DNA of 22,226 bases. Origin: a virus. Numbering within the stretch: position 1 is the stretch's first letter; the number at the start of each line of letters is the position of its first letter. Below the pieces are notes generated by a model. The model had not been told where the DNA came from. It made no database searches and saw only the letters and a program-made list of their open reading frames with translations. A program made the position numbers and the translations under genes. Of this stretch, positions 360-20,800 are shown piece by piece. The stretch covers positions 1-22,226 of IMG/VR virus record IMGVR_UViG_3300031825_000075. One strand, 5' to 3'.

Positions 360-845
360 TCACTGCACCGGCACGCCGCCGGCTACTGCGGAATTCTTCT
401 CGGCCTGGGCAAAGTGCGTCACCCTGGCACGCTCTACGATTCGCTTGCTCTCCACCTCGCGCCACAGTTCGGCGAAGGCCGGCAGCGGCATCTCGACCGT
501 AAAGTCGAGGCTCGTCGTCGCCTCGGAGCCGGTCAGCGTCGAGATATGCACCACCGCACGCCAGTCCTTACGTGGCAGGCGGAAGAACAGCACCGGGATC
601 TCTCCGGGCTTGGCCTGCTCGACGGTCTGCTCCCACCACGCGCGCATGGCCGGCTTGGCACAGTGCTTGACCTCGATGGCCCACCCATCCATGCCGGACA
701 GGTCAGAGTCATCGGCGTGGTTGCGCACGCGCCGGCGAATGTCGATGCCGAGCAGCTCGCAGAGTTCGCCCGCAATCTGGCGCTCACCCCTTTGACCTTT
801 CGCCCTGCTCGACTTGCCGCGCTGGCTTGCGGTGCGCTCAGTCAT
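360..845 (-). CDS. PDDEXK nuclease, Holliday-junction-resolvase-like
   Basis: A 161-residue protein with the layout of Hjc/restriction-endonuclease-fold resolvases. After a basic N-terminus it has a KGxRGER segment with a conserved Glu near residue 21, then D53 in GMDGWAIEVK followed by E58 and K60, forming the D-ExK metal-binding motif. Phages use such enzymes to resolve branched recombination or replication DNA, and here it follows NinB and a Ref-like protein in the same operon, filling the place that rusA has in lambdoid phages. The start at 845 overlaps the upstream stop (ATGA); an upstream in-frame ATG at 857 is less likely. Resolvase versus general nuclease is inferred from the motif and context. 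Confidence 0.75.
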   Translation of the reverse strand: MTERTASQRGKSSRAKGQRGERQIAGELCELLGIDIRRRVRNHADDSDLSGMDGWAIEVKHCAKPAMRAWWEQTVEQAKPGEIPVLFFRLPRKDWRAVVHISTLTGSEATTSLDFTVEMPLPAFAELWREVESKRIVERARVTHFAQAEKNSAVAGGVPVQ

Positions 846-1318
846 AGCTCGGGGCACACGCCGTAACGCAGCTCGACGGGAGGAAGGCTAGGCCCCTGCT
901 TCTGCTTGGCCTCCTCTATCTCGATCAGCATCTCCAACGTGTGGATCGCCTTGCGCAGATCAGCGATGCCGCCCTTACTGCGGAAGCGCGTCACGTACTT
1001 GACGATCGTGTGCTGGCAGGCGTCCAGGCCGTTCGCCATGCTGTATTGCATCGGCTGGATGGCCAGCGTCTTGTAGTGGCTGCCGCCTTCCTGGCGCTCC
1101 ATCGCGGACTTACGCGGGTCGGCGGCCTTTACCATCTGCTGCATGCTGGCAGCAAGCCTCGACCATTCATCGCGGCGGTCGACAACCTTCTGACGCCGCG
1201 CGACACCCTCGGCGGCAATCTGCTGAAGGTTTTTGAGGCGCGTGCACTGGCCGGCCTGCGCACAACTGATCATCGTGTCGCACCGCCCGCAGATCCCGAA
1301 CCCATGAGTCTGTTGCAT
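842..1318 (-). CDS. DUF3310-family phage protein
   Basis: A 158-residue protein. Residues about 77-133 match the DUF3310 pattern found in phage nucleotide-metabolism-type proteins: a GGSHY motif, then a helical block (TIVKYVTRFRSKGGIADLRKA). The N-terminal third holds four cysteines (C10, C13, C19, C25) that could bind a metal. The start at 1318 is preferred over an in-frame ATG at 1339 because a strong GGAGG site sits 5 bases upstream of it. The gene overlaps the downstream nuclease by ATGA, so the two are co-translated. The biochemical role of DUF3310 is not established. Confidence 0.7.
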   Translation of the reverse strand: MQQTHGFGICGRCDTMISCAQAGQCTRLKNLQQIAAEGVARRQKVVDRRDEWSRLAASMQQMVKAADPRKSAMERQEGGSHYKTLAIQPMQYSMANGLDACQHTIVKYVTRFRSKGGIADLRKAIHTLEMLIEIEEAKQKQGPSLPPVELRYGVCPEL

Positions 1319-1342
1319 TTCACCCTCCTCGTCTGTCAATTA

Positions 1343-1370
1343 TGGCTTGGTGAGCAAGCCTTTACGCATA
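1343..1370 (-). promoter_or_regulatory. Degenerate copy of the dispersed operator with an inverted repeat
   Basis: Between the genes starting at 1619 and 1318, the minus strand reads ATATGCGTAAAGGCTTGC, one base shorter than the consensus element. It also contains an inverted repeat, GGCTTG (1344-1349) with CAAGCC (1355-1360). A CATAAT resembling a -10 box follows on the minus strand, but no good -35 box is seen at the right distance. It may be an operator or a vestige of one. Confidence 0.4.
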
Positions 1371-1619
1371 TTTAGCCGCGAACAAATCCATCTGCCGCGG
1401 GTCGATCTCACGCACCGGATCAACCGGCGCCTTCTTCACCTGATGCGGCTGCAGCGTGACCAAGTCTCTCGGCCCACCGTCCACGTACCGGCATGTCAGC
1501 CGGCTGAAGCAGTCCCGCTTGCTCGTCCCGGCCAGCAGCTTCTTTACCACCGCCCGGCGGCCCGACGGGGTTACTACCGTCTCGCCGGGACTGAAATCTT
1601 CCAGATCCGCGCAAAGCAT
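1362..1619 (-). CDS. Conserved-looking small phage protein
   Basis: An 85-residue protein beginning MLCADLEDFSPGETVVTPSG and ending DPRQMDLFAAKYA. The first half reads like a small beta-barrel (the motif GETVVTPSGRRAVVKKLLAG). The start at 1619 has a GGAG site 7 bases upstream; longer in-frame starts would run back through the promoter. It is the first gene behind its own promoter (1650-1679). No function is recognised; a small DNA- or protein-binding accessory protein is a guess. Confidence 0.6.
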   Translation of the reverse strand: MLCADLEDFSPGETVVTPSGRRAVVKKLLAGTSKRDCFSRLTCRYVDGGPRDLVTLQPHQVKKAPVDPVREIDPRQMDLFAAKYA

Positions 1620-1633
1620 TGGTGCACTCCGTC

Positions 1634-1679
1634 TGAGCCATCTATGCATATTATAGCCCAAGCAAACGGCGCGTGTCAG
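1634..1679 (-). promoter_or_regulatory. Sigma70-type promoter with operator just downstream
   Basis: On the minus strand a CTGACA -35 box (1674-1679) is followed after 18 bases by a perfect TATAAT (1650-1655). The dispersed operator (TATGCATAGATGGCTCA, 1634-1650) begins at the edge of the -10 box and would cover the transcription start. The promoter lies in the 3' end of the Ref-like gene and would drive the gene starting at 1619 and those after it. A protein bound here would block initiation. Confidence 0.7.
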
Positions 1680-2022
1680 CAAGAAGATCATGTTCCGTGA
1701 AGCCGTAATGCTTCGGGAATCCCTTAGCGCCAAGGCCATGCACGCCCAGGTCGCCGGTATGGTGCGGCTCGCATAGCGGCATCGTGTCTTTGTCGTCCGC
1801 CCGTGCGGTACCCTGCCCTTCCTTCAGGTGATGCACCTGCACGCCGAACGTCTCGAAGCCCAGGCGCAGGCACACCACGCACGGCAGAGCAGCGACAGCG
1901 CCCATGTGATCGCGCGCGGCCTTGGGCTTGCGCTTCGGGCCCTTCTTCTTCCAGGCGCTGCGGGCCAGGCCGGCGCCCTGCTTCAGGCCGGCGGTGCGCG
2001 TCATCGGCGTGCGGCGCATCAT
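1651..2022 (-). CDS. ref: Ref-like HNH nuclease (recombination enhancement family)
   Basis: A 123-residue protein with a very basic N-terminus (KKKGPKRKPK) and an HNH-type zinc core: C48-x2-C51, the H64-H65 pair in QVHHLKEGQGTARADD, and C84-x2-HH. The GVHGLG and YGFTEHDLL motifs after it are typical of P1 Ref and relatives, which are RecA-dependent DNA-cleaving proteins that bind DNA through a basic N-terminus. The start at 2022 overlaps the NinB stop by ATGA and has a GAGGG site. An adjacent ATG at 2019 is possible. The role in promoting recombination is known for P1 Ref and inferred here. Confidence 0.75.
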   Translation of the reverse strand: MMRRTPMTRTAGLKQGAGLARSAWKKKGPKRKPKAARDHMGAVAALPCVVCLRLGFETFGVQVHHLKEGQGTARADDKDTMPLCEPHHTGDLGVHGLGAKGFPKHYGFTEHDLLADTRRLLGL

Positions 2023-2444
2023 GCCGCCCTCGTCCCGCGCGCCATTTCCTCGTAACCCCGCAGGGCCGGCTCGCTCCACCTCACATCGCGCTCTGCGCCG
2101 AAAGCCGACATCAGCTCCTGCAGGTCCGTCATCTGCTTGACTGTCATCTTGCTAGTGCTCTTACCAAGCACCACGAACCCGCCATCCAGGCCCGGCACGA
2201 CGTCCTGCTTCGCCAGCGCGGCCGAGAAGACGTGCTTCCAGTCCTCCGGCGCCAGCTTGCGGCCGTACCACTCGACCTGTTTCGACACGTCGGCCAGCAT
2301 GGCCCACAAGCGCGAATTCTGCTCTAGGCTGCGCGTGCGCGGCTGGATCGTCACGATGTGCCCCTCTGGCGCCGAGTCGATCGCGGCCTTCGCGCCGGCG
2401 CGGGCCTGGGCGTGCACCAGGCGGAAATGTTGCTTGTCGCTCAT
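2019..2444 (-). CDS. ninB: NinB-family recombination protein
   Basis: A 141-residue protein, close to the roughly 146 residues of lambda NinB (Orf). Family features include the RSLEQNSRLWAML block at about 38-50, the PEDWKHVF block at about 66-73, and KMTVKQMTDLQELMSAFGAE at 99-118. NinB binds single-stranded DNA and SSB and acts as a mediator in phage recombination. The start at 2444 overlaps the upstream stop by ATGA. It precedes the Ref-like gene, forming a recombination pair within the nin-like part of the operon. Confidence 0.85.
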   Translation of the reverse strand: MSDKQHFRLVHAQARAGAKAAIDSAPEGHIVTIQPRTRSLEQNSRLWAMLADVSKQVEWYGRKLAPEDWKHVFSAALAKQDVVPGLDGGFVVLGKSTSKMTVKQMTDLQELMSAFGAERDVRWSEPALRGYEEMARGTRAA

Positions 2445-2911
2445 GCCTGCTTTTCCCAGTATTTTTGTTCGACCAGGCGCGTAGCCTTGTCCACCTCGCC
2501 CACCGTGCACAGCCGCAACTGCGCGCCCCACAGATCCAGCGCCAGGCGCACCGCCTTCAGCCCGTCGCCATCCAGCAGCAGCCGGCCGGTGTCGTGGTAA
2601 CGCTTCTCGGCGCGCTTCATGCCGGCCTCGGCGTCAGCAATCGCCGGCAGCGCTTCCTCGCCGATGCCATGCTGCGCCAATGTCCACGCGTGATTTACGC
2701 CCCGCGCCACGCTGTTCCACTCGTGCGGCGTGGCCGTGCCCTTGCGCATCTCCTCCAGCGCCGTCATCACTGCCGTCTCCAGCGGCGCCGCGGACTCCTC
2801 AGTGATCGCGCTAGCCTTGACCTGTGCCATCGTCAGGCATACGAAAGCGCGCGCGGCACCGGTGATGCCGCGCGGCTTGTAGGCCTTGCGCGGCTTCTTG
2901 TTGCCGGCCAC
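2441..2911 (-). CDS. Unknown phage protein, helical
   Basis: A 156-residue protein with a basic N-terminus (MAGNKKPRKAYKPRG) and a mostly helical body. It starts at a GTG (2911) one base after the stop of the upstream gene, with a GGGTGG sequence ahead of it, and overlaps the NinB start by ATGA. Proteins of this layout are common next to ninB in beta- and gammaproteobacterial phages, but I cannot name a family or function. Confidence 0.65.
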   Translation of the reverse strand: MAGNKKPRKAYKPRGITGAARAFVCLTMAQVKASAITEESAAPLETAVMTALEEMRKGTATPHEWNSVARGVNHAWTLAQHGIGEEALPAIADAEAGMKRAEKRYHDTGRLLLDGDGLKAVRLALDLWGAQLRLCTVGEVDKATRLVEQKYWEKQA

Positions 2912-2912
2912 G

Positions 2913-3125
2913 TCAGGCCACCCGACCCAGCCAGCGGCCGAAGCGCGTCGTCACGTTGATCTCGCCCGCCAGCCCGCGCGGGTAGCAGCGCGCCCAGGCC
3001 AGCGCGTCGGCGTAGTCCCACGCACGATGCTCGTGGCCGTCAAACTCGCCGCCCTTCACGACGACGCGGTACGGCTTCAGGGCCTTGCGGATTGCCACCT
3101 TGGCGGCGCGGATCAGTGCTGGCAT
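2913..3125 (-). CDS. Small basic phage protein of unknown function
   Basis: A 70-residue protein (MPALIRAAKVAIRKALKPYR at the N-terminus, TTRFGRWLGRVA at the C-terminus), with a HEHRAWDYADALAWARCY helix in the middle. A textbook AAAGGAG site lies upstream of the ATG at 3125. It is the first gene behind the strong promoter at 3159-3186, and the next gene follows after two bases. No family is recognised. Confidence 0.65.
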   Translation of the reverse strand: MPALIRAAKVAIRKALKPYRVVVKGGEFDGHEHRAWDYADALAWARCYPRGLAGEINVTTRFGRWLGRVA

Positions 3126-3734: not shown

Positions 3735-4030
3735 GATTGGATCTCCTCATGCTGTTCGTTATGCACCGGCAGGCCGGGCAGCGGGCGAAGTTTGTGGTCG
3801 GCGCCAACGCCGTATTCGGTGATGCGCTTGACGCCATGGGTGGTATCAACTGTGAATGGCGACCCCAGCGAGCGAATGATCCAGCGGCCCGGGCCGCAGG
3901 GCCCATGCCCTTGCCCGTTCGGCAGGGTGAAGTCGATGCCAACCGGCGCGGCGGCGATCACCTCAACCAGCCACCCGTCATGCGTTACAGTGCCCACCAC
4001 GATTGCGAGGTCGTTCGGCTTGCATCTCAT
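3731..4030 (-). CDS. Conserved phage protein, beta-barrel-like
   Basis: A 99-residue protein starting MRCKPNDLAIVVGTVTHDGW. The KPxDLAIVV opening, the central GRWIIRSLGSPF and the closing KLRPLPG are features of a small protein family seen beside replication genes of many proteobacterial phages. The family has no assigned function. The start at 4030 overlaps the previous stop by ATGA. Family placement is from memory of the sequence pattern, not a search. Confidence 0.65.
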   Translation of the reverse strand: MRCKPNDLAIVVGTVTHDGWLVEVIAAAPVGIDFTLPNGQGHGPCGPGRWIIRSLGSPFTVDTTHGVKRITEYGVGADHKLRPLPGLPVHNEQHEEIQS

Positions 4031-4350
4031 GACCGCACCCCGACCCAGCAAGACACGGGCGCGGCATGGGCCGCCGGGTTGCTGCACGAGGCGAAGCCGA
4101 TGCGGCGGATCAGGCCATTCGTCGCGGCCTTGCGGATCACGCCTCCCCAAGCCCTTGCGTGCGGTGCGACGGACAACCCCTGCTTCGTCGCATAGTCCCG
4201 CACCTGCTCCGCGCGGAACTCGTAGCCCTGCTTCGCGAACCACCGGACATAGTCGTATGCCTCGGCCGCCCATCCTGGGCTTGCGGTCTCTGCGCTTTCC
4301 GTCGCGCGCTGGATGCCGTCGTCGCGCAGTTCTGCGCCGGTCATTTGCAT
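4027..4350 (-). CDS. Phage protein of replication-module type, winged-helix-like
   Basis: A 107-residue protein beginning MQMTGAELRDDGIQRATESA. The second half (RAEQVRDYATKQGLS, then RAWGGVIRKAATNGLIRRIGF) looks like a winged-helix domain, and this order is typical of a phage family placed just after the P-type loader gene. The start at 4350 lies inside the last codons of the loader gene, with a GGGAG site 6 bases upstream. Function is unknown; DNA binding is inferred from the helix pattern. Confidence 0.65.
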   Translation of the reverse strand: MQMTGAELRDDGIQRATESAETASPGWAAEAYDYVRWFAKQGYEFRAEQVRDYATKQGLSVAPHARAWGGVIRKAATNGLIRRIGFASCSNPAAHAAPVSCWVGVRS

Positions 4351-5126
4351 GTTTGGCTCCCTAAAAATGCATTTACGGTTACTTGCGGGCGAGCGGAAAC
4401 CTGCGCAGCGATGTCGCGCTTCCTCTGCTCGGTGGCTCGGCGCTCCTCTGCCAGGCGCTGCGTTCGGATTCTCTCGGCCTTGTCCATCGGGCTTTCCAGC
4501 TTCGCCAGCGCGGCACGCAGCCGGGCCAGGTTCTCCCGCGCCTTGTCCGGTGGCGTCGGGTCGGCGGTGGCCGGTGGCGGCAACAGGCCGGCAATGTGCG
4601 CGGCCGGCAGGATGCCCGCGATCTCGGCGCGCCCTAGCTCGGCCTCGCGGCGCTGCCCGTCCCACCCGAGCGATGCCTGCCACTCCACCGAGCGATGCGC
4701 CGTGCGCGCGGCCTGCACGATGCGCTCATAGGCGCCCTTGAACGCCATGCGCGCGCCGACCTCGTCGCCCATGTCCAGCACCGGGCGGCAGACGGCGAAA
4801 GCCTGCGCGATCTCCGGCGTCCATACGACCGTGTCGGCCTCGTCCTGGCTGCGCAGTGCCAGCGCCCATGCTTCGTCGGGGCCCGGCCGGTTGTCTCGCC
4901 CGCCGGTGCCCTGCGCCTGCGCCAGCAAGTCGGCCGGTTTCGGGAAGTACTTCCCGCTTACCGGGTCTGACATGTGGCGCTGCACAGCGGCCTCTACGGC
5001 CTCGATCGGCAGCGCCTGCAGGGCACCGTAGTACAGCCGGAGTTGCGCCTTGCTGAAGTCCTTGCTGTAGGTCTCAGCGCAGGCCATGACGCACGAGGCG
5101 AAGCGCTGTTTGTCGTCTTCAGTCAC
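4341..5126 (-). CDS. Replication protein P-like helicase loader
   Basis: A 261-residue protein with an N-terminal helical domain, including QLRLYYGALQALPIEAVEAA, AVQRHMSDP and the SGKYFPKPADLLAQA block that marks P-type DnaB loader proteins. The C-terminal half is helical and highly charged (ARENLARLRAALAKLES, then AERIRTQRLAEERRATEQRK), probably a coiled coil. Such proteins bring the host DnaB helicase to an O-bound origin. The start is a GTG at 5126 overlapping the upstream stop, preceded by AGGGGG. Three small genes separate it from the O-like gene. Assignment rests on the PKPAD block and gene order. Confidence 0.65.
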   Translation of the reverse strand: MTEDDKQRFASCVMACAETYSKDFSKAQLRLYYGALQALPIEAVEAAVQRHMSDPVSGKYFPKPADLLAQAQGTGGRDNRPGPDEAWALALRSQDEADTVVWTPEIAQAFAVCRPVLDMGDEVGARMAFKGAYERIVQAARTAHRSVEWQASLGWDGQRREAELGRAEIAGILPAAHIAGLLPPPATADPTPPDKARENLARLRAALAKLESPMDKAERIRTQRLAEERRATEQRKRDIAAQVSARPQVTVNAFLGSQTCK

Positions 5127-5317
5127 TGCGCCCCCTTTGCCCTGGCAAGGGCGACGCGTGCAGCGTCGATGGCGTGCCAGAAGTCCAGTGTGTTGTAAAA
5201 CCCGACGCCGCCGCTGTCGACGCTGTCAAGCAGGGCCTGAAGTGCACTCACCAATTCGCCGGGGAGGTTTTCGTGCTGCGCTGCGCGGGCGATAGCGCTT
5301 TCCTGAGCTTTAGTCAT
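5123..5317 (-). CDS. Small helical phage protein
   Basis: A 64-residue helical protein (MTKAQESAIARAAQHENLPG start, ARVALARAKGAQ end) between the O- and P-like genes. Its ATG at 5317 overlaps the upstream stop (ATGA), and its stop overlaps the GTG start of the loader. Tight coupling and composition support coding. No function is recognised. Confidence 0.55.
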   Translation of the reverse strand: MTKAQESAIARAAQHENLPGELVSALQALLDSVDSGGVGFYNTLDFWHAIDAARVALARAKGAQ

Positions 5318-5541
5318 GACTGCTCTCCGGTGGCCTTGGCGATGGAGGCGCGGGCGAACTGCAAAGTCGCCTCGCTCAAATTGGCGTGATCGGAAACCAT
5401 ATCGCGCAGCGCTTCCAGCAGATCAGGAGCGGCGACAAGTAAAAGGGTGTCTTCCGGCATCGGGCTATTGATGCGAGCAACGACGCCCTGCTGGCAAACG
5501 AGGTTATTGCCCTCAATCCACCACTTCGGTTGTGCGCTCAT
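5314..5541 (-). CDS. Small phage protein with the AAPDLLEAL motif
   Basis: A 75-residue protein beginning MSAQPKWWIEGNNLVCQQG, with the motif LLLVAAPDLLEALRDMV in the middle. The AAPDLLEAL motif marks a widespread phage family of unknown function. The start at 5541 shares one base with the O-gene stop (TGATG), and a GGAGG site lies 7 bases upstream inside the O gene, so translation is coupled to O. Confidence 0.65.
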   Translation of the reverse strand: MSAQPKWWIEGNNLVCQQGVVARINSPMPEDTLLLVAAPDLLEALRDMVSDHANLSEATLQFARASIAKATGEQS

Positions 5542-6554
5542 CACTTGCCCTCCTGCAGCCATTCGTTCACCGCCAGCAGCGTGCGCTGACCAGCGGGCGA
5601 CAGTTCGGTCGATGCTTCTGCTCGCATCGGCTTCTCACGGCGTACCCAGTTGCGCCAGGTTGCCTCCCAATCCGTCTTGCGACCCTTAGCGCCAGGGACT
5701 GCGATCCAGTAGTCGCGGAACTGCTCGGCAACGCGCAGAGCGTGCGAAGGGTTCCACGTTGCTTGCTCTCCAAGAGCCCATGCTTGCCAGTCTTCAGGAA
5801 GCTGCCAGTCCGCCGCCAAGCGCGAAGCGCGCCCTGACGGTTTCCCTTTTGGTTCCTTCTGATGGTTCATTGACGGTTCTATGTCCCGTTTTTGGTACTG
5901 CTTCGACGGAAAAACGGTACCGCTATCACGGAAATTTGGTACCGCTTCGTGGGAAATTTGGGACTGCTTCGCAGACTGAAGCGGTACCGTTTTTCCCTTG
6001 GACCGCACGATGCTCAACTGCTGTAGTTGGTCGTTCTTGCATAGCGGATCGCCGTCGATTTGTCGGAACATGCGCACCTCAGCAGCGAATGCCTCCTCTG
6101 CTGTCTCGAATTCTTCCAGCACCTCACGGAGCAGGACGGCGCCCTTCGCCTGCATGTCGCGCACCCAGCGCCCGCTACCTCGGTAGGAATCCTGCTCGGG
6201 GTCGCCGTTGAAAGAGCGCTTGCCGATGTAGTACTCGCCGGTGTCCGGGTGATAGGTGCGATAGACGAAGTGCGTATCGCAGGCGCCAGGCAGGCCCGAG
6301 AGGCGATACACAGGGATCGAGCCGGTATCACCCACGCGGCGGCCGGTGTCTTCCAGTAGGCCGACGTCAATCAACCGCAGCAGGTTCGACATGATCGTCT
6401 TGCGGTCCTGCGCGGTGTCGCGGCAGAGCGTGGTAATGCTGGGGTAGGCAATGCCGGATTCGTCGGCGTAGTTGGCGAGGCACACCAACAGGAACTTCTC
6501 GCTGGATCGGGCGACGTCGAGCTTCATCACCCAGGAGATTGCGTGGATGCTCAT
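5541..6554 (-). CDS. O-like replication initiator with an internal GIY-YIG domain
   Basis: A 337-residue protein. Residues 1-84 form a winged helix (SSEKFLLVCLANYADESG, then TLCRDTAQDRKTIMSNLLRL). Residues about 94-174 match a GIY-YIG nuclease: VYR at 97-99, YIG at 109-111, a YRGSG turn at 124-128, E159 in EEAFAAE and N174. Residues 186-225 are encoded by the iteron array. Residues 247-306 (DWQLPEDWQAWALGEQATWN, then DWEATWRNWVRRE) are typical of the C-terminal part of phage O/DnaT-like proteins, which contact the loader. Lambda O likewise binds iterons inside its own gene. The start at 6554 has a GGAGGG site 8 bases upstream; an in-frame ATG at 6590 lies inside the previous gene and is less likely. 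Nuclease activity is untested; the domain could be a decayed insertion. Confidence 0.8.
   Translation of the reverse strand: MSIHAISWVMKLDVARSSEKFLLVCLANYADESGIAYPSITTLCRDTAQDRKTIMSNLLRLIDVGLLEDTGRRVGDTGSIPVYRLSGLPGACDTHFVYRTYHPDTGEYYIGKRSFNGDPEQDSYRGSGRWVRDMQAKGAVLLREVLEEFETAEEAFAAEVRMFRQIDGDPLCKNDQLQQLSIVRSKGKTVPLQSAKQSQISHEAVPNFRDSGTVFPSKQYQKRDIEPSMNHQKEPKGKPSGRASRLAADWQLPEDWQAWALGEQATWNPSHALRVAEQFRDYWIAVPGAKGRKTDWEATWRNWVRREKPMRAEASTELSPAGQRTLLAVNEWLQEGK
5881..5997 (-). repeat. O-gene iteron array, probable phage replication origin
   Basis: Four repeats of about 20-24 bases lie head to tail: 5881-5904, 5905-5924, 5925-5948 and 5949-5970. A fifth copy is inverted at 5974-5997. On the minus strand the shared core is GAAGCGGTACC followed by AAATTTCC or a similar AT run. 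Units are about 20-24 bases apart, close to two helical turns. They lie in the linker region of the initiator gene itself, as lambda ori lies in gene O, and a less GC-rich stretch (about 5840-5880) follows. I infer that this is where the O-like protein binds. Confidence 0.75.
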
Positions 6555-6555
6555 A

Positions 6556-6783
6556 TCAGAAGCCCTCCACGGTATGGAAGTCCTCACCATTGCGGACCAT
6601 GAAGCCCGCGCTTACCAACTCATCGGCGATCTTCTCAATTTCGCTGTCAACCTTCTCCAATCGCCAGCCGTTAGGTTGGCTGAGAACATATGCAAGAAAG
6701 CCTAGAGCAGGCCAGGACAGACCGGCGTCGAATACACGGTTGTCGATGAGGGTTACGGGGGGGGTGCGGCGGCGGATAGGCAC
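6556..6783 (-). CDS. Small phage replication-type helix-turn-helix protein
   Basis: A 75-residue protein (MPIRRRTPPVTLIDNRVFDA, then GLSWPALGFLAYVLSQPNGWRLEKVD). This is the first part of a winged-helix pattern common in phage replication proteins (LSWxALGxxxYxLSxPxGW), but it is shorter than usual and has no clear downstream DNA-binding domain. I take the GTG at 6783 as start because GGAGG lies 8 bases upstream; an ATG at 6849 has no suitable site. The Shine-Dalgarno sequence is inside a strong hairpin (6793-6808). The stop lies just before the O-like start. Confidence 0.65.
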   Translation of the reverse strand: MPIRRRTPPVTLIDNRVFDAGLSWPALGFLAYVLSQPNGWRLEKVDSEIEKIADELVSAGFMVRNGEDFHTVEGF

Positions 6784-6899
6784 TTTGAATTCCTCCGCGC
6801 TCGCGGAGAGGGAGCTTTGCAGCCCCGCATTAGTTCGGGGTGCGGCCATTGCTGGTGACGCAGCCCCTCCGCGAGCGCACTAATGTAAGCGTGAATCAC
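6753..6899 (-). CDS. Possible 48-residue leader peptide or small protein
   Basis: A frame from a GTG at 6899 (AGGG 7 bases upstream) reads MIHAYISALAEGLRHQQWPH and ends 31 bases inside the next gene. It runs through both arms of the leader inverted repeat (6797-6808 and 6867-6878), so ribosomes on it would melt the hairpin that hides the next gene's Shine-Dalgarno sequence. The first half looks like protein; the end (SAAAPPP) looks like an out-of-frame read of the next gene. It could act mainly by coupling translation. Confidence 0.4.
   Translation of the reverse strand: MIHAYISALAEGLRHQQWPHPELMRGCKAPSPRARRNSKCLSAAAPPP
6793..6878 (-). promoter_or_regulatory. Leader RNA with an SD-sequestering hairpin and a competing arm
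   Basis: On the minus strand CTCCGCG-AG-CGCGGAG (6793-6808) forms a 7-bp hairpin whose 3' arm holds the GGAGG of the gene starting at 6783. An upstream segment, GCGCTCGCGGAG (6867-6878), is perfectly complementary over 12 bases to the 5' arm, loop and start of the 3' arm. Pairing there would free the ribosome binding site. A further inverted repeat, CATTAGT/ACTAATG (6879-6885 and 6828-6834), could form an upstream stem. This is the geometry of a translational switch; the mechanism is inferred. Confidence 0.5.
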
Positions 6900-6965
6900 C
6901 GGATCGCCCTGCAAGAAGCATCCCGGTGGCTTGGAGCACCGCACGTTGCGTGCGGCACCGAACAC

Positions 6966-7007
6966 AGTTTAGCCGTTCACGCTTCGGCGTTCAAGCATTT
7001 ATGCATT
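6966..7007 (-). promoter_or_regulatory. Promoter with operator overlapping the -35 box
   Basis: On the minus strand TTGAAC (6989-6994), 17 bases, and TAAACT (6966-6971) form a good sigma70 promoter. The operator (AATGCATAAATGCTTGA, 6991-7007, one G shorter than consensus) ends in the -35 box. The whole site lies within or just after the 3' end of the cro-like gene, so replication genes can be transcribed separately from cro. The leader to the gene at 6783 would be about 175 bases. Confidence 0.65.
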
Positions 7008-7249
7008 TCCGCAGGCACAATTGTCTCGGCCCTGGGCTTGCGGCGCTGCTCGTAGGGTTTCCGCTTCGCCTTCAGGTGCGTGAAAAGCGAATAGACATTG
7101 CTGTAACTGGGGTCTTTCGACCTGGTCGCATAGGCGATGTTGTAGACCGTGCCATAGGCCACGCCGGTAGCCTGGGCAACGGCTTTCCACTCGGTGGTGC
7201 GCATCGCTTGCAATTGTTCACGAACATAATTCAGTTGGTTTTCAGCCAC
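6977..7249 (-). CDS. Cro-like helix-turn-helix regulator
   Basis: A 90-residue protein starting at a GTG (7249) with an AGGTG site 5 bases upstream. The helix-turn-helix lies at about residues 21-45 (WKAVAQATGVAYGTVYNIAY), and the pattern up to residue 60 matches small phage Cro/antirepressor-type DNA-binding proteins. It is divergent from the repressor gene at 7350 and heads the leftward early operon, as cro heads PR in lambda. Its last codons contain an operator and promoter for the replication genes. Cro function is inferred from position and fold. Confidence 0.65.
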   Translation of the reverse strand: MAENQLNYVREQLQAMRTTEWKAVAQATGVAYGTVYNIAYATRSKDPSYSNVYSLFTHLKAKRKPYEQRRKPRAETIVPAEMHKCLNAEA

Positions 7250-7349
7250 TTGTTCACCTTTCTTAATTTGTCGCCTACAATTAGGCATACATGCATCATA
7301 ACCGGTGCAAATACGCATACTAGACTTTTGACATCCTTGGGAGAGGACT
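7250..7349. promoter_or_regulatory. Repressor/cro divergent control region
   Basis: These 100 bases hold two degenerate copies of the dispersed operator in minus orientation, at 7280-7297 and 7302-7319, spaced 22 bases (about two helical turns). A short palindrome, GCCTA-CAAT-TAGGC, lies at 7273-7286. Minus-strand TATGAT (7295-7300) and plus-strand CATACT (7316-7321) are possible -10 boxes, but I see no convincing -35 for either. The repressor gene has a GGGAG site 6 bases before its ATG. Confidence 0.6.
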
Positions 7350-7832
7350 ATGAAAAACGCAGGGAAGATCTTCGCAGCAAACCTTGTCCGGCTGATGGCT
7401 GTACGGCCAGATCTGGACACCCAACTAAAGGTAGCCGACAAGAGTGGGGTAGCCCAATCTACAGTGGGCCGGATACTTCGCGGCACGGTGTCGCCGACAC
7501 TGGAAAACGTCGAGGCAATCGCGCATGCATTTGGGAAGGCGCCAGGGGAGATGATCGGCTCCGGTTACAACTCTGCCGCCGAGATTGTGTACGACCGTGT
7601 ACGCTATGCAAAGTTACCTAAAGAGGAGAAGCTAAGAGTCGAGTCCTATATCGAGCACGCCCTGCGGGAGCATGATGTGGCAGCCGCAAGGGGTGGTCGA
7701 GAATTCAACCAAACCACCCGGACGCCTCTAAAAACAAGTTCGAATCCCCAGGCGACGGGAAGCAACGTCTTCACAAAAAATGAACAAGCAACAACGGCAG
7801 TACGGGGAAGTAAGCCACGCAAAGCCAGCTAA
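7350..7832 (+). CDS. XRE-family phage repressor lacking a peptidase domain
   Basis: A 160-residue protein with an XRE helix-turn-helix at about residues 24-58 (QLKVADKSGVAQSTVGRILR, then SPTLENVEAIAHAFG). The rest (KLPKEEKLRVESYIEHALRE, then a polar low-complexity tail rich in T, N, K and S) has no room for an S24/LexA-like peptidase and shows no Ala-Gly cleavage site or Ser/Lys pair. It is divergent from the cro-like gene, so it is the best candidate for the lysogeny repressor and for binding the dispersed operators. Lacking autocleavage, it would not respond to SOS in the usual way. The start at 7350 has a GGGAG site 6 bases upstream. Confidence 0.75.
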   Translation: MKNAGKIFAANLVRLMAVRPDLDTQLKVADKSGVAQSTVGRILRGTVSPTLENVEAIAHAFGKAPGEMIGSGYNSAAEIVYDRVRYAKLPKEEKLRVESYIEHALREHDVAAARGGREFNQTTRTPLKTSSNPQATGSNVFTKNEQATTAVRGSKPRKAS

Positions 7833-8214
7833 AGTAATCAGCCTCGCCGAGTACCGTGGCAAGCAAGAGCCGGCGTCAGCCCCTGGGTCAGCAGGGGTCA
7901 GCGTCACCATTGAGAACGGGGAAGTCGTAACGACCGCGGCGCACGTCACGCCGGAGGACGTGCCGGCCATTGTCGCGGCGATGGCGCGGCTGGCATCTGA
8001 CCTGATGCTGTTCCTCGATTCCGCAAAGACTGCATCGCTCTCGGTGGCGATAGTTGCGTCGCTCGTGTACGCAGATTCGGTGCTGTGGCCGGCCTACGCC
8101 CAGCCCGCGCCGATAGCCATTTCGCAGGCAGGTGGCGACACAAACAATATGCATAAATGGCTTGCATATGAGCCGGGTATGCACTACCATTCTTCACAGG
8201 CCGGGCAGCGCTGA
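7780..8214 (+). CDS. Unknown phage protein overlapping the repressor gene
   Basis: A 144-residue frame beginning MNKQQRQYGEVSHAKPAKVI, overlapping the end of the repressor gene by 53 bases in another frame. A helical middle (DVPAIVAAMARLASDLMLFL) is followed by a hydrophobic stretch (ASLSVAIVASLVYADSVLW) that could be a membrane segment or a buried helix. The last codons coincide with a promoter/operator (8148-8190). The ribosome binding site is weak, consistent with coupling to the repressor. No family is recognised, and the true start could be internal. Confidence 0.5.
   Translation: MNKQQRQYGEVSHAKPAKVISLAEYRGKQEPASAPGSAGVSVTIENGEVVTTAAHVTPEDVPAIVAAMARLASDLMLFLDSAKTASLSVAIVASLVYADSVLWPAYAQPAPIAISQAGGDTNNMHKWLAYEPGMHYHSSQAGQR
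8148..8190 (+). promoter_or_regulatory. Promoter with operator overlapping the -35 box
   Basis: The element TATGCATAAATGGCTTGC (8148-8165), 16 of 18 to consensus, is followed by TTGCAT (8162-8167), a 17-base spacer and TACCAT (8185-8190). The -10 box is weak. It lies inside the 3' end of the preceding gene and points to the recombination block starting at 8376. Confidence 0.55.
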
Positions 8215-8320: not shown

Positions 8321-8485
8321 ATGGATCAGCAGTGGTACGAGGAAGTCGGAAGACAACAAGAATTCGAGGAACAGAATGAGCACAGCAACCCTAATACTCG
8401 GCGAGTCGGGCGCCGGCAAGTCAACCAGCTTGCGGAACCTGGATCCAGCGCAGACGCTGCTGATTCAGGCCGTGCGTAAGCCACT
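8321..8485 (+). CDS. Possible short overlapping ORF before the ATPase gene
   Basis: A 54-codon frame from the ATG at 8321 begins MDQQWYEEVGRQQEFEEQNE, with an acidic/glutamine-rich composition unlike the usual arginine-proline shadow reads in this DNA. From 8376 on it overlaps the ATPase gene in another frame and the sequence looks less protein-like. The ribosome binding site is poor (GGGTG). It may be the remnant of a small gene truncated by fusion to the ATPase gene. Confidence 0.25.
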
Positions 8486-9029
8486 GCCGTTCAAGGGCAA
8501 GGGTTGGGCGTACTTCAGCAAGGATGCCTGCCCCACCGGAAACGTCTTCGTTTCCGATCAGTACACCGCGATCCTGAAGATGATGGAGAAGACCCGCCGC
8601 AAGGTGGTCATCCTCGACGACGCGCAATACGTGCTCGCCAACGAGTTCATGCGCCGCAGCGACGAAACCGGCTTCTCCAAGTTCACGGAGATCGGCCGCC
8701 ACGCATGGGAAATCTTCATGCTGGCGAACAACCTAGCCGACGATGTGCGCGTCTACATCCTGTCGCACACGGAAACGGGCGACGGCGGCCAGACCAAGAT
8801 CAAGACGATTGGCCGCATGCTGGACGAAAAGATCACCATCGAGGGGCTTTTCTCGATCGTCCTGCGAGCTCGCGTCATTGATGGCGAGCACTTTTTCCAG
8901 ACCCGAAACAGCGGGTCGGATACGGTCAAGAGCCCGATGGGCCTGTTCGATGCAGACCGCATCAACAACGACCTGGCGTTAGTCGACAACGCCATCTGCG
9001 ATTACTACGAAATTAACCAACCTGCTTAA
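8376..9029 (+). CDS. AAA-family ATPase, phage recombination type
   Basis: A 217-residue protein with Walker A at residues 9-17 (GESGAGKST) and Walker B near 77-82 (VVILDD). The order LRNLDPAQT, KPLPFKGKGW and a sensor-like VYILSHTE matches the small phage AAA_24/Sak4-like ATPases that sit beside DUF669 SSBs and act on single-stranded DNA in phage recombination or replication. The start at 8376 has a GAGG site 6 bases upstream; longer in-frame starts run into the operator. The SSB gene follows 18 bases later. Annealase-type function is inferred from this partnership. Confidence 0.75.
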   Translation: MSTATLILGESGAGKSTSLRNLDPAQTLLIQAVRKPLPFKGKGWAYFSKDACPTGNVFVSDQYTAILKMMEKTRRKVVILDDAQYVLANEFMRRSDETGFSKFTEIGRHAWEIFMLANNLADDVRVYILSHTETGDGGQTKIKTIGRMLDEKITIEGLFSIVLRARVIDGEHFFQTRNSGSDTVKSPMGLFDADRINNDLALVDNAICDYYEINQPA

Positions 9030-9047
9030 CCCAAAGGAGCAATGAGC

Positions 9048-9692
9048 ATGCGTTCTTACGACCTGAACCCGGAACAAGCCAAGCAGGCTGAGTCGGCCCG
9101 TATCGTCGAGACTGGCAAATATGTGGGCGTCTTTACCGCGGCCTACGGCGCCGAGTCGCAGAAGGGGACCGAGGGAATCGAATTTGCCTTCAAGACGGAT
9201 GACGGCCGGACTGCCGACTTCCTCACGCTGTGGACCTACAACACGGACGGCAAGGAACTGTTCGGCCTGAAGGTGCTGAATGCCGTTATGACCTGCCTGC
9301 GCGCCAAGAAGATCACCCCGCAGAATGGCGTCGTCGAAAAGTGGGAGAACGGCCAGCGCGTGCCGGTGCAGGTGCAGGTGTTCAACGACCTCACGAACAA
9401 GCGTGTCGGCCTGCTGCTGCAGCGCGAGGAATACCGCAAGCAGGACGGCAGCACTGGCAGCAAATTCAACATCGTCGGCGCGTTCGATGCGGAAAGCGAG
9501 ATGACGGCAAGCGAGATCCTGACCAAGGCGACGCGCCCCGAGAAGCTGGCCGGCATGGTGGCCGCACTGCGCGACAAGCTGCTGCCGGCCGGCGCCGGTG
9601 GCTCTGCCGGTGGTTCGCGCAGCCAGGGCGGCGGCTACGGCAGCGCGCCATCGAATGGCTTCGAGGACATGGATGACGACATCCCGTTCTAG
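9048..9692 (+). CDS. DUF669-like single-stranded DNA-binding protein
   Basis: A 214-residue protein with a beta-rich N-terminal domain (residues about 1-150), a glycine- and serine-rich linker (SAGGSRSQGGGYGS) and the acidic tip MDDDIPF. That tip is the SSB-type C-terminus that recruits partner proteins. The family is the phage DUF669 SSB analogue. I choose the ATG at 9048 because AAGGAG is 8 bases upstream of it and only 2 bases upstream of the ATG at 9042. It likely works with the ATPase before it and the exonuclease after it. Confidence 0.8.
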   Translation: MRSYDLNPEQAKQAESARIVETGKYVGVFTAAYGAESQKGTEGIEFAFKTDDGRTADFLTLWTYNTDGKELFGLKVLNAVMTCLRAKKITPQNGVVEKWENGQRVPVQVQVFNDLTNKRVGLLLQREEYRKQDGSTGSKFNIVGAFDAESEMTASEILTKATRPEKLAGMVAALRDKLLPAGAGGSAGGSRSQGGGYGSAPSNGFEDMDDDIPF

Positions 9693-13722: not shown

Positions 13723-13868
13723 CCGCCCCTCTATCTACCCGTCTGTTCATTCATCCTGATAGCCGTATGTATATACGTATATATGGCTACTTTACCACTC
13801 ATCCAAAAGGACGCATTGCCACCTAGAAAGTTATGCGGTAGTCTATGCATAACTACATGGAGGCGGGT
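13723..13868 (+). promoter_or_regulatory. par control region / candidate centromere
   Basis: Contains a 30-base imperfect palindrome (13760-13789, TAGCC...GGCTA, 11 of 15 pairs matched, AT-rich centre). Its right half is also a 13/18 copy of the dispersed operator (13774-13791). A second inverted repeat, GTTATGC (13830-13836) with GCATAAC (13847-13853), overlaps a possible promoter, TTGCCA (13816-13821), 17 bases, TAGTCT (13839-13844). Type Ib par operons carry centromere and autoregulatory sites upstream of parA, bound by the ribbon-helix-helix partner; that role is inferred here. Confidence 0.5.
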
Positions 13869-14513
13869 ATGGGCATAGTCGTGGTGGTAGGCGCCTATAA
13901 GGGCGGCGTGGCGAAAAGCATGACGGCTGTGAATCTGGCTGCAATGCTGGCTGTCAATGGGCGCGAAGTGATGCTCGTCGATACGGACAGGCAGGAGAGC
14001 GCCTACGGGTGGGCACAGGTGCGTGAGCGTAATTCCAGCCTCCCACCTGTGCATGCTACCAAGCGCACCGGCAGCATCTGGTCCGGGTTGATGGCCGACC
14101 GCGCAAAGTGGGATGTAGTCCTCGTGGATGCTGGTGGCCAGGATAGCCCGGAGTTGCGCCAGGCGATCGCCGCGTGCGACGTGCTGCTGGTCCCGGTGAA
14201 GCCAGCCATCTTCGACACCTGGGCTATGGCGCGCGTGGCCGAGGCCATCAAGTCGACGCGCAACGAGGGACGCCAGTTTCGTGCCGTGAGCGTGATCGCC
14301 GCGGCAGACACCCGGACCAAGGAGGCGCGCGAGCTGCAGCCGATCCTGACCGCCGAGTATGGCGACGTGATGCCGCCGCTTGACGTCGTGCTGTACGAGC
14401 GCGTGGCGTACCGTATGGCGCTGCGGGAAGGGAAGGGCATAGCCGACGGCACCGACGATGCCAAGGCCCTCGACGAGCTTACCCAGGTCTACCGGAGCGT
14501 GTTCCATGACTAA
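13869..14513 (+). CDS. parA: ParA partition ATPase, small type Ib-like
   Basis: A 214-residue ParA/MinD-type ATPase. The deviant Walker A is YKGGVAKS (K11 and K16), Walker A' is VMLVDTD at 34-40, and Walker B is the WDVVLVDAGG stretch. The small size and lack of an N-terminal HTH place it with ParF-like type Ib proteins, which segregate plasmids by pattern formation on the nucleoid. The start at 13869 has GGAGG 5 bases upstream; ATGs at 13845 and 13857 are in frame but lie within the control region. It overlaps the partner gene by 8 bases. Its presence in a phage genome implies an extrachromosomal prophage. Confidence 0.9.
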   Translation: MGIVVVVGAYKGGVAKSMTAVNLAAMLAVNGREVMLVDTDRQESAYGWAQVRERNSSLPPVHATKRTGSIWSGLMADRAKWDVVLVDAGGQDSPELRQAIAACDVLLVPVKPAIFDTWAMARVAEAIKSTRNEGRQFRAVSVIAAADTRTKEARELQPILTAEYGDVMPPLDVVLYERVAYRMALREGKGIADGTDDAKALDELTQVYRSVFHD

Positions 14514-14931
14514 GCGCCCACCCCTGACCGTATCCCCGACACCGCCGACCGCCGAGGATTTCCCTATGCCTGACAGCGTGAAGCGCCTAGCCGCCCTGGC
14601 GCCTCATGGCGAGGCCGTAGTCGGCCTGCCCGAGGAGCCGGCGCCGAAGCCGGCACAGGCCCAACCAGAGCCGCCAGCGCAGTCGGAGGAGGGCGCAGAC
14701 GAGCCCTTGCAGGAGATGGTCGGCTTCGATGCGCTGCGGGCGATGATCCCCAGGAAAGAGCCCGTCAAGCTCATGAGCGTGAAAATGCCCCTATCGCTTT
14801 ACGAGCGCATGAACCTCATTTCCCGCATCACTGACGCGACCATGACGGATATGATCGTCGCCGGCGCCACAAAGGAAGTAGCGAAGCTGGAGGCCAAGCT
14901 GCAGGCGGGAATGAAGAAAGCAGGGGGCTAG
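14506..14931 (+). CDS. ParG-like centromere-binding protein (ribbon-helix-helix)
   Basis: A 141-residue protein with a disordered, proline- and glutamate-rich N-terminal 80 residues and a C-terminal ribbon-helix-helix at about residues 86-130 (PVKLMSVKMPLSLYERMN, then TDMIVAGATKEVAKLEAKL). This is the layout of the small partners of type Ib ParA proteins (ParG-like), where the folded part binds the centromere and the flexible tail stimulates ParA. It is longer than TP228 ParG. The ATG at 14506 lies inside the end of parA, which is typical of co-translated par pairs. Confidence 0.75.
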   Translation: MTKRPPLTVSPTPPTAEDFPMPDSVKRLAALAPHGEAVVGLPEEPAPKPAQAQPEPPAQSEEGADEPLQEMVGFDALRAMIPRKEPVKLMSVKMPLSLYERMNLISRITDATMTDMIVAGATKEVAKLEAKLQAGMKKAGG

Positions 14932-14932
14932 C

Positions 14933-15511
14933 ATGGCGGCAAGCGAAAGCGACCAGGGCGAGCTTTTCCACGCCGAGACACACTGGTTCCACGTGTTCAA
15001 GGCCATGATCGAGAATGGCGACGCCGGAGAGATGGGGCCATATGCGTTTATGGTCTATTGCGTGATCAAGGCGCACACGAACTACACCACTGGAGACAGC
15101 TACCCGGGCCACGAGGCGATCGCGCAATGCTGCAAGATCAGCGAGCGAGAGGTGATCCGTGCGTTACAGAAGCTGTCCACGATGGGGTATATCACCACCG
15201 AGAAGCGGGGGCGCAAGAACCACTACACCCTGCGCGAGAAGATCCTGGTGAACGACGACGCCGGGGTGCCCGCTGCAATGGCTAGCTGGGACTATGTGCC
15301 CAGCGGCGTGCAGCATGCGGTAGCAGATCTGAAGCGGGTCTTGATGGAGGGGGACTTGGCCGGCGCCAAGATCGTCAACATCGAGCGGCTTACCGTCAAC
15401 GTGAACATGAACATCCATGCAGGAACGGGGGATCAGTTCAACATTAGTGACATCAGCGATCCATCCCTGCGCGCTGCCGTCGAGAACCTACTGCACAACC
15501 GGAAAGGGTGA
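14933..15511 (+). CDS. Winged-helix plasmid-type replication initiator
   Basis: A 192-residue protein. Residues about 35-105 form a helix_turn_helix_36-type winged helix (GPYAFMVYCVIKAHTNYTTG, then SYPGHEAIAQCCKISEREVI and KRGRKNHYTL). The rest, including NIERLTVNVNMNIHAG, is of unknown fold. It starts one base after the par partner stop, behind AGGGGG, and is followed at once by an iteron array with DnaA boxes. That makes it the likely Rep protein. It could instead be a regulator of the same region; the family is also used for phage replication initiators. Confidence 0.65.
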   Translation: MAASESDQGELFHAETHWFHVFKAMIENGDAGEMGPYAFMVYCVIKAHTNYTTGDSYPGHEAIAQCCKISEREVIRALQKLSTMGYITTEKRGRKNHYTLREKILVNDDAGVPAAMASWDYVPSGVQHAVADLKRVLMEGDLAGAKIVNIERLTVNVNMNIHAGTGDQFNISDISDPSLRAAVENLLHNRKG

Positions 15512-17374: not shown

Positions 17375-17845
17375 ATGAAACGACTTATCGCAGCGGCAGC
17401 GTTAGCCGCAATCACATCCCTGTGCGCCGCCGGCCCGGCCGCAGATATGGCGTTCTCGCAAGAGTCCGACCGCCTCAATGCGCAATTGGATGCGGGCAAG
17501 ATGACGCCGCTCGAATTCGCGAGGGGGCAGGCGGCGCTCGCTAAGACGCTACTCTCGGACGATCAGCGGATCGTTCAGATTTACGAGTACAAGGTGGAGC
17601 TCGCGAGCCAGCTAGAGCGAGGCGAGATAACCCGGGAGCAGATGCTCTCGAATCTAGCCGCCCGCGCTGACGCCTACTATCCGCAGCAGGCGCAGCCGGT
17701 TGCCCAGCCTGCCCCGCAGCCGAACCTTGCCGGAGCGATGGCGCTGCGCGTGTTCGCTGACAGCTTCAACCGTTCGCGCCAGCCGGTGCCGCGCAACTGC
17801 CAGACCATCGCCCTCGGCGGCACGTACACGACTACTTGCCAGTAG
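17375..17845 (+). CDS. Secreted/periplasmic protein, likely lysogenic moron
   Basis: A 156-residue protein with a signal peptide of about 22 residues (MKRLIAAAALAAITSLCAAG). A helical middle follows (residues 24-100), then a glutamine- and proline-rich stretch (QQAQPVAQPAPQPN) and a C-terminal pair of cysteines, C142 and C155, likely a disulphide (NCQTIALGGTYTTTCQ). It is on the strand opposite the surrounding late genes, has its own strong ribosome binding site, and overlaps the polyvalent gene tail to tail by 14 bases. This is the usual setting of a moron expressed in the lysogen. Function is unknown. Confidence 0.6.
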   Translation: MKRLIAAAALAAITSLCAAGPAADMAFSQESDRLNAQLDAGKMTPLEFARGQAALAKTLLSDDQRIVQIYEYKVELASQLERGEITREQMLSNLAARADAYYPQQAQPVAQPAPQPNLAGAMALRVFADSFNRSRQPVPRNCQTIALGGTYTTTCQ

Positions 17846-20800
17846 GCCCAGCAAGGATGCGCCGCATCACCTTCATGCGGCGCGCCTCGACCTCGTCCAG
17901 CAGCTCGCGCTGTTCGACGTCCGGCACCTTGTCCGTCTCGATGCGCTTGCGGGCCTTGTTCAGGTTCAACAGCGCCTTCTCGGCCGCGTCGAATTCGCCC
18001 ATGCGCTTCTTGCCGGCGGCCAGATCGCCGTCGCCGAGTTCGGTCAGCACCTTTTCCATGCCTTCGCGGTTGCCGTCCTTGGCGTACTTCTTGGCCTGGC
18101 CGACCGTCTGCTTCAGCTTCTTGGTTTCCTCGAAGAATGCCCGCTCCTGCGCACGCTCCTCCGGCGCCTCGCCATAGAAGCGGGACAGCGCCGGCACCTG
18201 TGAGGCTTCGATCTTCTTGCCCTGGGCCGAGTCGAGCGCCGTCGTCACGGCCTTATCCGCGGTCTGCGTGATGCCTGGTAGCAGGTAGCTATTGACCAGC
18301 AGGCGCAGCACCTCGGGCGGCACGTCGACAGCGCCAGGCTTGACCGAGTCGCCGCCGGTGATGTCATTGAGCAGCTTCGATGCCGCTTTCCACTGGTCGC
18401 CGGTGGAGCGGAATGCGCGATCGTAGGCCGGACCCACATAGCCGCGCTCGTCGGCTTCACGGTAGACCGGGCCGCCGGTGAATGATTTGTTCTCGGCCGC
18501 CTGGGCGACAGGCTTTACCACGGACGGCAGCAGGAACTGCGCAAACGAGCCCGGGGCTCCCATCGGGTTGAAGGCGTCGAGCGTGACCCGGGCCATGCTG
18601 GCGCCCTTCTCGACAACGCTACCGCCCTTCTTGAAAATCATCTCCGACATGATGCGGCCAGCGTTGACCATGACGTGCGGGCCAATCGGCAGCGGCACCT
18701 TCACGTACTTGCCCGACGGCGTCATGAAGATCCAGTTGCGTTCCTTCTCGAAGTCGGGGATCTCGTCGTACTTCTTCTTGCGCGTCTCGTCGTCATCGCC
18801 GCCAATGGCGCGGTTCAGCGCATCCATGACGAAGCCCATCGCCACCAGGCCGCCAGCCACCACCTGGGCGCGGCGGTTCTTCGCCAGCGCGCCAAGGAAG
18901 CGGGCATTGCCCTGCAGGTTGGCATTGAAGAACATGTACAGCGAATTGGCGAAAGCCGTCTGCGAGCCCTTGCGGTTGAAGTTCACCGTGATGTTCTTCG
19001 CTAGGCTGGCAGCCTGACGGTTGGTTAGGCCGGCGTCGCGCGCGGTCTGGTAGACGGCCAGGCGCACGCCGTTCTCGACGATGTTGTTATAGTCGTCGAT
19101 GGCCTCCACCAGCGAGCGCGCCAGGCGCCGCGGGTCGGCGATGCCCTGCTTCATCTGCTCGACCTGCTTTTCGAGGTCTTGCATGCGCTCGGCCGGGTTC
19201 TCGAAGGCCTTGACGTACCCGGTCTCGGAGCCGTCTTCCTTGAACTGGCGGGCATACTCTGCCCACTGGCCGGTGCCGTCGCCGCGCGTCATCTTCCAGT
19301 AGCCGGCCATGCCCTTCGGGATGCTGGCGAGTACCTTCGCCTCCTTGCCGGCAAGCGGGGTGTTCTGCAGGTTGAAGGCGGCGCCCTGCACGTCGCGCGC
19401 AAAGTTCGTGATCCAGAACAGCGGGTTCCGCGCGGTGATCCACTGCGACAGGTAGCGTGTGGCCTTGCCGATCGTCTCGACGGCCCACGGCAACTGTGCA
19501 GCGTCCAGGCTCTGCATTGCCTCGGCGATGCGCATGGCACGCTCGTTCTTCTCGTTGAAGACGATGAAATGCTCTTTGCCATTCTCCTTCACCGTGAGGA
19601 CGTTGTCCTTGCTCTTGAATAGCGGGTCGTCAGCCCACTCGACAAGGCCGGTGTCCGGGTTGACGCGCTTCTTCTTGGGCGGCTCGTCCACCTTCCAGAA
19701 CGTGTCATTCGGGAATTCGCGCGCCAGGTCCAGCAGCGAGCGGCCGACCTTGGCCTTCTCGGCGCGGGTGATCGTGCTCTGCGCCTGGGCGATCACGTTG
19801 GCGATAATGTCCTGCGCCTCAGCGGTCTGCCCGAGCGCGCGCTGCGATTCCGGCCCGCGCACGTTGAAGCCGCCCACCTTGCGCCGGCCGTGGCTCGGCA
19901 TGTCCTGCATGAGTGGGACGTAATTCTTGTAGACCGCCTCCCAAGCGTCGACCACCTCGCGCGTTTCCAGGCCCGACGACACGATGCGCCGGCGCGATTC
20001 CTTGGTGATGGCGTCGACCATCGCCGCAATCTTCTCGTAGGCCTCGGCCTTGCCCGCCTGCCGTGCCGCGGCCAGGATGCCGGCCGCCTCGGAATTGCTC
20101 ATGCCGGACAGGGCCTGATTATCCTTGCGGTTCGGGTTGATCTTGGCGAGCTGTGCATTGCGCTCCGGCGCGTGGCGGGCGTACAGGTAGCGGTTCACAT
20201 CGGCCAGCGACAGGCCGGACTCATGCACAGCTTTGAGCAACGGCGTCACGCGGCGGTCGATCAGGTTGTCGACCTGGGCCGACACGCGACCGTGGTAAAG
20301 CTCCTCGTTCAGATAGGCGTCCGAGCGCTCCCGGATCGTGTTGCCGGCCGAGCGAATCGCCTCCTGCACGCGCTTCAGGTCTATCTTGTTATCCTGCATG
20401 GCGCGGGCGATGTTGTCCCAAATGCCGGGCTCGGGCACCTCGAAAGACTGGCGCGGGCCGAAATTCAAATCGTCCTGGCTGTAGTCGACATTGTCGCGCG
20501 CGGACAGCCGCGTACCCGATTCTGCGCTGGCCTTCTGCTCGGCGCTCTTGTCGCGCAGGTAGGTCTGCGCATCGCGAAGCAGCGCGGCGATCTCGGCGTC
20601 GGTGACGTCGGCCTTCGTGAATCCGATCTTGCGCAGGAACTGGCGAATCGCATCCATCACCCGGCGCACGATGCTGTTCTGCGCGTTGCGCTCGGCCATG
20701 ACGGCGATGATCTCGCGCGCACGGCTCTCCGGCGACAGGCCGGGCTGCGTGCGGTCCACATGTGCGGCGGCGTCGGCGATGGCCTTGTTCCCGTCGCGCT

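Follow-up and report, generated by a model that had tools for sequence, protein, structure and literature searches.

Homing-type nucleases joined to replication initiators have a described precedent. In Odn, the origin-directed nuclease of Vibrio phage ICP1, a homing-type nuclease domain is joined to the DNA-binding domain of a RepA-like initiator. Odn cuts satellite origins; its activity needs iterons and is lost when the catalytic glutamate is changed (PMC8263062). Odn-like chimeras arose several times, and the coliphages Inny, Muut and Mt1B1_P17 carry Odn-like proteins (PMC8263062, PMC10448857). gp210 of phage PhiPA3 is a homing endonuclease that serves interference competition with a co-infecting phage (PMC11620839). 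Here we analyse a viral stretch of 22,226 nucleotides (IMG/VR record IMGVR_UViG_3300031825_000075, positions 1 to 22,226; the window), in which one gene is predicted to encode an O-type phage replication initiator containing a Seg-like GIY-YIG nuclease domain, referred to below as the block. An earlier note, made from the letters of the window, had pointed to this domain and called its placement unusual. The same arrangement recurs in seven other initiators and has a functional precedent in Odn, neither of which was known to that note.

The window protein is like Odn in that a GIY-YIG-type nuclease derived from a homing endonuclease gene is fused to an initiator-type DNA-binding domain. Iteron origins are the demonstrated target of Odn and the presumed target here. 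Odn combines a T5orf172 nuclease with RepA_N, whereas the window protein pairs a Seg-like nuclease with an HTH_36 domain (the only family that Pfam reports) for DNA binding, within an O-type initiator that is complete and has iterons and a loader-binding domain of its own. In sequence, fold and conserved residues the nuclease is like the Seg-like homing endonucleases of T4-like and other large phages (phrog_314). The Seg-like enzymes sampled are stand-alone proteins with the nuclease at the N-terminus and a C-terminal region of their own, whereas the window protein has the nuclease domain only, in an internal position. The remainder of the protein shares with lambda-type O and the O-like PHROGs 1032, 678, 391 and 270 an N-terminal winged helix, in-gene iterons, a variable C-terminal loader-binding part and a P/DnaC/DnaB-like neighbour; outside the eight fusions, the O-type initiators sampled carry no nuclease domain. 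gp210 of PhiPA3 is likewise a phage homing-type endonuclease, with a role in phage competition that is shown for gp210 and proposed here, but it is an intron-encoded HNH enzyme that has no initiator part and is directed at gp178 of PhiKZ. Neither of the two protein families is new, nor is the concept of a nuclease directed at origins. What appears, provisionally, to be new is that an O-type initiator with iterons in its gene, complete and apparently functional, encloses a GIY-YIG domain, and that this recurs in eight distinct sequences; no description of such a domain was found in the partial set of literature searched.

The GIY-YIG block and its active site

The earlier note had assigned residues 94-174 to the GIY-YIG fold and suggested a profile or structure search, which found the similarity. 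The block matches phrog_314 (homing endonuclease) with an E value of 8e-10, and 4e-12 in a six-frame search of the record. The residues quoted in that note are correct, namely V97-Y98-R99-x9-Y109-I-G, YRGSG at 124-128, E159 and N174. In an alignment with eight free-standing phage Seg-like endonucleases, the block keeps every invariant column (Y98, Y109, G111, D122, Y124, G126, S127, E159 and N174 in protein numbering). An AlphaFold2 model of the block, built with 49 aligned sequences, has a mean pLDDT of 89.6, and its best matches in the PDB are to the I-TevI catalytic domain (Z 7.8 and 7.7, 82 residues, 2.8-2.9 A; VIA-align). The next rows are the CMoRE/PD-T4-3 restriction enzyme and UvrC GIY-YIG domains, with Slx1 lower down; weaker unrelated folds are interleaved at Z 3.3 and below. 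The top matches in BFVD, a library of viral models, are phage GIY-YIG homing endonucleases, and PADLOC returned weak or homing-endonuclease models only. The paired tyrosines Y98/Y109, the glutamate E159, the asparagine N174 and the alpha/beta fold are all present, which confirms residues 94-174 as a Seg-like GIY-YIG nuclease domain with predicted cleavage activity. Pfam and NCBIfam scans miss the block, and Pfam yields HTH_36 only for the window protein at E values up to 1; standard annotation would therefore overlook the nuclease domain.

The eight fused blocks are 35-70% identical in pairs, with 17 of 80 ungapped columns invariant. Y98, Y109, R113, E159 and N174 are the same in all eight. 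Both tyrosines are nearly invariant in 67 related endonucleases as well, and E159 and N174 align with the conserved Glu and Asn of Seg-like enzymes. R113 falls at a position where this subfamily has Arg or His, and is a candidate equivalent of R27 in helix 1 of I-TevI. A simple hypergeometric estimate, made without regard to phylogeny, puts at about 0.0015 the chance that Y98, Y109, E159 and N174 would all be among the invariant columns. By this comparison the active site is under constraint across eight diverged initiators, which argues against a dead relic. It also bears on the idea that the block serves to contact DNA or to regulate, with catalysis slight or absent, and acts for example in autorepression of the O operon or masking of the origin. 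Such a role would remove the problem of self-cutting, but five invariant active-site positions in eight diverged fusions are not expected of a purely structural element, and we regard it as improbable.

Initiators with and without the block

The N-terminal part of the window protein, described in the earlier note as a winged helix of residues 1-84 and bounded here at 1-88, matches HTH_36 over residues 18-67 (Pfam, E 2.4e-10) and phrog_1032 (E 3e-31), along with other O/primosomal PHROGs. Several replication-initiator PHROGs match on both sides of the block. At the C-terminus, phrog_3992 and phrog_1408 (primosomal/DnaT-like) match residues ~240-310, where relatives conserve the motif WEATWRNW. 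This C-terminal domain is folded in the AlphaFold model of the full-length protein, whose pTM of 0.42 led us to leave the domain arrangement uninterpreted. A winged helix of the O/primosomal type at the N-terminus, together with iterons in its own gene, marks the protein as an O-type initiator with a predicted role in replication.

Close initiators from Pandoraea, Burkholderia phage Bcep176 and several viral contigs, with winged helices 42-49% identical to that of the window protein, have no block. In them the sequence VYQI or VYRL runs directly into the iteron linker, leaving an empty site at the junction. Most homologous initiators are without the block, and profile similarity exists, so neither of the two outcomes that the earlier note had named as telling against it was obtained. 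Its statement that the nuclease lies between the DNA-binding and the loader-binding parts agrees with the profile, structure and empty-site comparisons alike, and insertion relative to close kin is supported by sequence and model.

Seven further distinct fusions carry the block at the same junction: L202, L200 (=L201), L203, L241 (=L242), L244, L394 and L395. Five came from a winged-helix profile scan and two from a later scan with the block profile; each of the seven matches initiator PHROGs and, in an independent match, phrog_314. The block is present in 8 of the 93 distinct winged-helix sequences compiled, a proportion that does not estimate frequency because the sample was drawn by similarity. 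A separately gathered set of ~67 related nuclease domains belongs to stand-alone proteins, in which the domain is nearly always near the N-terminus. An empty block-only search of viral contigs, with short exact-match patterns, had suggested that the window fusion was a singleton, which the profile scans ruled out; a first initiator scan, dominated by C-terminal matches, contained no fusion. Vibrio and EBPR phage matches that reach residues 117-129 were read out as possible fusions and have no GIY-YIG domain. Plasmid records gave no match to the block, and phage records no megablast relative of the window. Rfam found no match in window 4000-8000 and hence no sign of an intron there.

All the fusions come from IMG/VR contigs, most and perhaps all of which derive from metagenomes. 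Since every case is a contig of a viral collection and none comes from an isolate record searched, an artefact of assembly that joined an endonuclease gene to an O gene has to be considered. However, eight distinct sequences from several assemblies share the same junction, with open frames and a block of matching composition, and this independent recurrence leads us to reject the artefact, whose probability we regard as negligible. The block has a GC content of 0.62 and typical codon usage, and so bears no mark of recent arrival.

Phylogenies of the two parts do not agree. On the winged-helix tree the fused state requires at least five gain or loss changes, of which well-supported branches enforce two, while the nuclease tree places the eight initiator blocks in one group against the 67 others (SH-aLRT 79, not significant by itself); both trees rest on few columns. 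Between L203 and the group of the window, the winged helix is 58-64% identical and the block just 35-38%. Such a pattern would result from exchange of the block among initiators or, alternatively, from its repeated loss together with recombination. The C-terminal types also vary among close fusions (DnaT/phrog_1408-like in the window and L202, phrog_678 in L200, phrog_270 in L395), so the winged helix and nuclease seem to form a unit that has been combined with different loader-binding ends.

Iterons and the proposed target

The linker of residues 186-225 had been described as iteron-encoded, and the window gene indeed shows a 22-bp periodicity over gene nucleotides 574-661, with 65% identity against a shuffle maximum of 52%. 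Fused and plain (block-less) genes have the iteron core CAGTCCC(A/G)AAAACGGGAC in common, mostly at a spacing of 22 bp. Taken gene by gene, periodicity fails to exceed shuffles in L202, L203 and L205 and exceeds them at best marginally in L395 and L207; the core is nonetheless visible by eye in L202, L203 and L205. The fused L241 and the plain L204/L206 have in common an identical stretch of 29 nucleotides, AAACAGTCCCAAAAACGGGACACGGAACC, and the winged helices of L241 and L204 are 75% identical. These likenesses make it plausible that fused initiators recognise the origins of block-less relatives. In the window gene the iteron array is intact beside the block.

One use of such an arrangement would be a nick in the phage's own origin, made at initiation or to aid a switch to recombination-type or rolling-circle-type replication. 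The block adjoins the winged helix that is expected to bind the iterons of its own gene, its active site is conserved and recombination genes are present in the window, all of which would suit this role. Yet most close initiators, with the same iterons and operon context, are without the domain, so nicking is not generally needed, and lambda-type origins melt without a nick. We consider own-origin nicking quite unlikely.

The reading that we favour, with chances that we judge evenly balanced, is that the initiator would direct an active nuclease to origins with iterons, most plausibly so as to cut rival replicons, and that repair of the break would copy the block. The winged helix would bind the 22-bp iterons and hold the nuclease beside them, and the protein would nick or cut DNA with this iteron family. 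The most likely payoff would be competition. Its targets would be the origins of related block-less phages, prophages or satellites, which have the same iteron core and likewise lie in their O genes. If the break were repaired from the nuclease-bearing phage, the block next to it would be copied, and a single cut would then lead both to exclusion and to homing-like spread. The phage's own origin would be spared, or its cutting tolerated, for example through an I-TevI-like preference for cleavage site and spacing, through nicking only or through masking after the helicase loader has bound. We favour cutting of related replicons because of the precedent of ICP1 Odn and the part played by homing-type endonucleases in phage competition.

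Several points weigh against this proposal. In classical homing, insertion destroys the target, whereas here the protein's own gene carries the same kind of iterons, intact, which should be bound too; some means of self-protection would be needed. The nuclease activity is itself a prediction from sequence and model. O genes are normally silent in a lysogen, which would confine exclusion to lytic or co-induction settings. The fusions all share the IMG/VR origin noted above, and no isolate with a fusion was found among 50,697 phage records or the bacterial genomes sampled. The latter comprised 399 genomes of one order, searched twice (the second time with the fused alignment), and 398 genomes from the phylum, for which the block was the query; these searches ran without a positive control, and the absence is weak evidence.

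The block could instead be a selfish homing domain that persists by cutting block-less O genes and spreading through gene conversion, with no benefit to the phage. Its nearest relatives are Seg-like homing endonucleases, its distribution is patchy, its tree and that of the winged helix are incongruent, and the window holds Sak4, SSB, NinB and RusA-like recombination genes. But carriers keep their iterons intact, the endonucleases' own C-terminal region is absent from the fusions, and position and active site are stable across diverged initiators. Purely selfish homing seems unlikely to us. The three roles proposed in the earlier note, own-origin nicking, rival-origin exclusion and a domesticated homing domain, are inseparable by sequence alone. 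A tentative extension of rival-origin cutting, which we think rather doubtful, is a self-spreading initiator module that unites replication start, rival exclusion and homing of the initiator allele in one polypeptide. Such a protein would start replication of its own genome and, against relatives that have these iterons too, serve as an origin-directed nuclease; self and non-self would need to be told apart at the origin.

Neighbouring genes and implications

Table 1. Features of the initiator gene and its surroundings, in window positions.
Feature	Position	Strand	Basis
Nuclease-initiator fusion gene, 337 aa (ATG 6552-6554, stop 5541-5543)	5541..6554	minus	profile matches
Likely ribosome-binding site GGAGGG, 8 nt 5' of start codon	6563..6568	minus	direct reading of sequence
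Winged helix, residues 1-88, predicted iteron-binding domain	6291..6554	minus	HTH_36, phrog_1032 etc., relatives
Seg-like GIY-YIG nuclease domain (block), residues 94-174	6033..6275	minus	phrog_314, alignments, AlphaFold, fold search
Block codons	Y98 6261-6263; Y109 6228-6230; R113 6216-6218; E159 6078-6080; N174 6033-6035	minus	
Iteron array (predicted origin) inside gene, encoding linker residues ~186-225	5881..5997	minus	22-bp spaced repeats, periodicity, core in relatives
C-terminal DnaT-like domain, residues ~240-310, predicted helicase-loader-binding part	5625..5837	minus	phrog_3992, phrog_1408
Downstream gene in P position, 261 aa, candidate helicase loader	4341..5126	minus	phrog_6028; weak phrog_2289

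The product of the gene in P position matches phrog_6028 (E 4e-56, unknown function) and, weakly, the helicase-loader family phrog_2289 (E 0.005). Where the locus could be read, a helicase loader or helicase gene neighbours the fusions, in the window by position and this weak match only. The gene behind the fusion is P-like in L200 and L241 by sequence inspection, and DnaC/IstB-like in L202 and L395 (Pfam) and L394 (inspection); a primase/DnaB-like pair, identified mainly by inspection, follows L203. A second winged helix of this profile was found in none of the longer fusion loci L280-L284 and L286. From this context the fusions look like the phages' own initiators.

A ParA-type ATPase gene lies at 13845-14513 (+) in the window, and near it is a second HTH_36 winged-helix protein of 192 aa (14933-15511, +), possibly a plasmid-type replication or partition protein. 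ParA-type matches are also present on the contigs of the closest fusions, L202 and L200/L201, and absent from the contigs of the other fusions, some of which are short fragments. Because of these matches, the closest fusion group (window, L202, L200/L201) may be phage-plasmids. A recombination set, which could repair breaks, occupies 363-2531 (-) and 8379-9692 (+) and comprises a RusA-like/PDDEXK nuclease, a Ref-like RecA-dependent nuclease, NinB/Orf, a Sak4-like annealing protein and SSB. A protein of 1395 aa (17835-22019, -) matches the ends of the giant PHROGs 14770, 616 and 10691, of unknown function. Other endonuclease genes were seen on two further contigs: on L283, the contig of the fused L203, a gene lying a few kb downstream (14119-14643, +) whose product appears by eye to be a stand-alone HNH homing endonuclease, and on L160 a GIY-YIG endonuclease like Ackermannviridae enzymes (2162-3118, +), with a GC-rich frame upstream.

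The origin-directed nucleases known so far are separate anti-satellite proteins. If the proposed function is true, an initiator that activates one origin could also break origins of its type elsewhere, which raises the question of how an iteron-bound nuclease avoids its own. It would also offer a simple explanation for pressure towards diverse iterons and towards exchange of replication modules among temperate phages and phage-plasmids.
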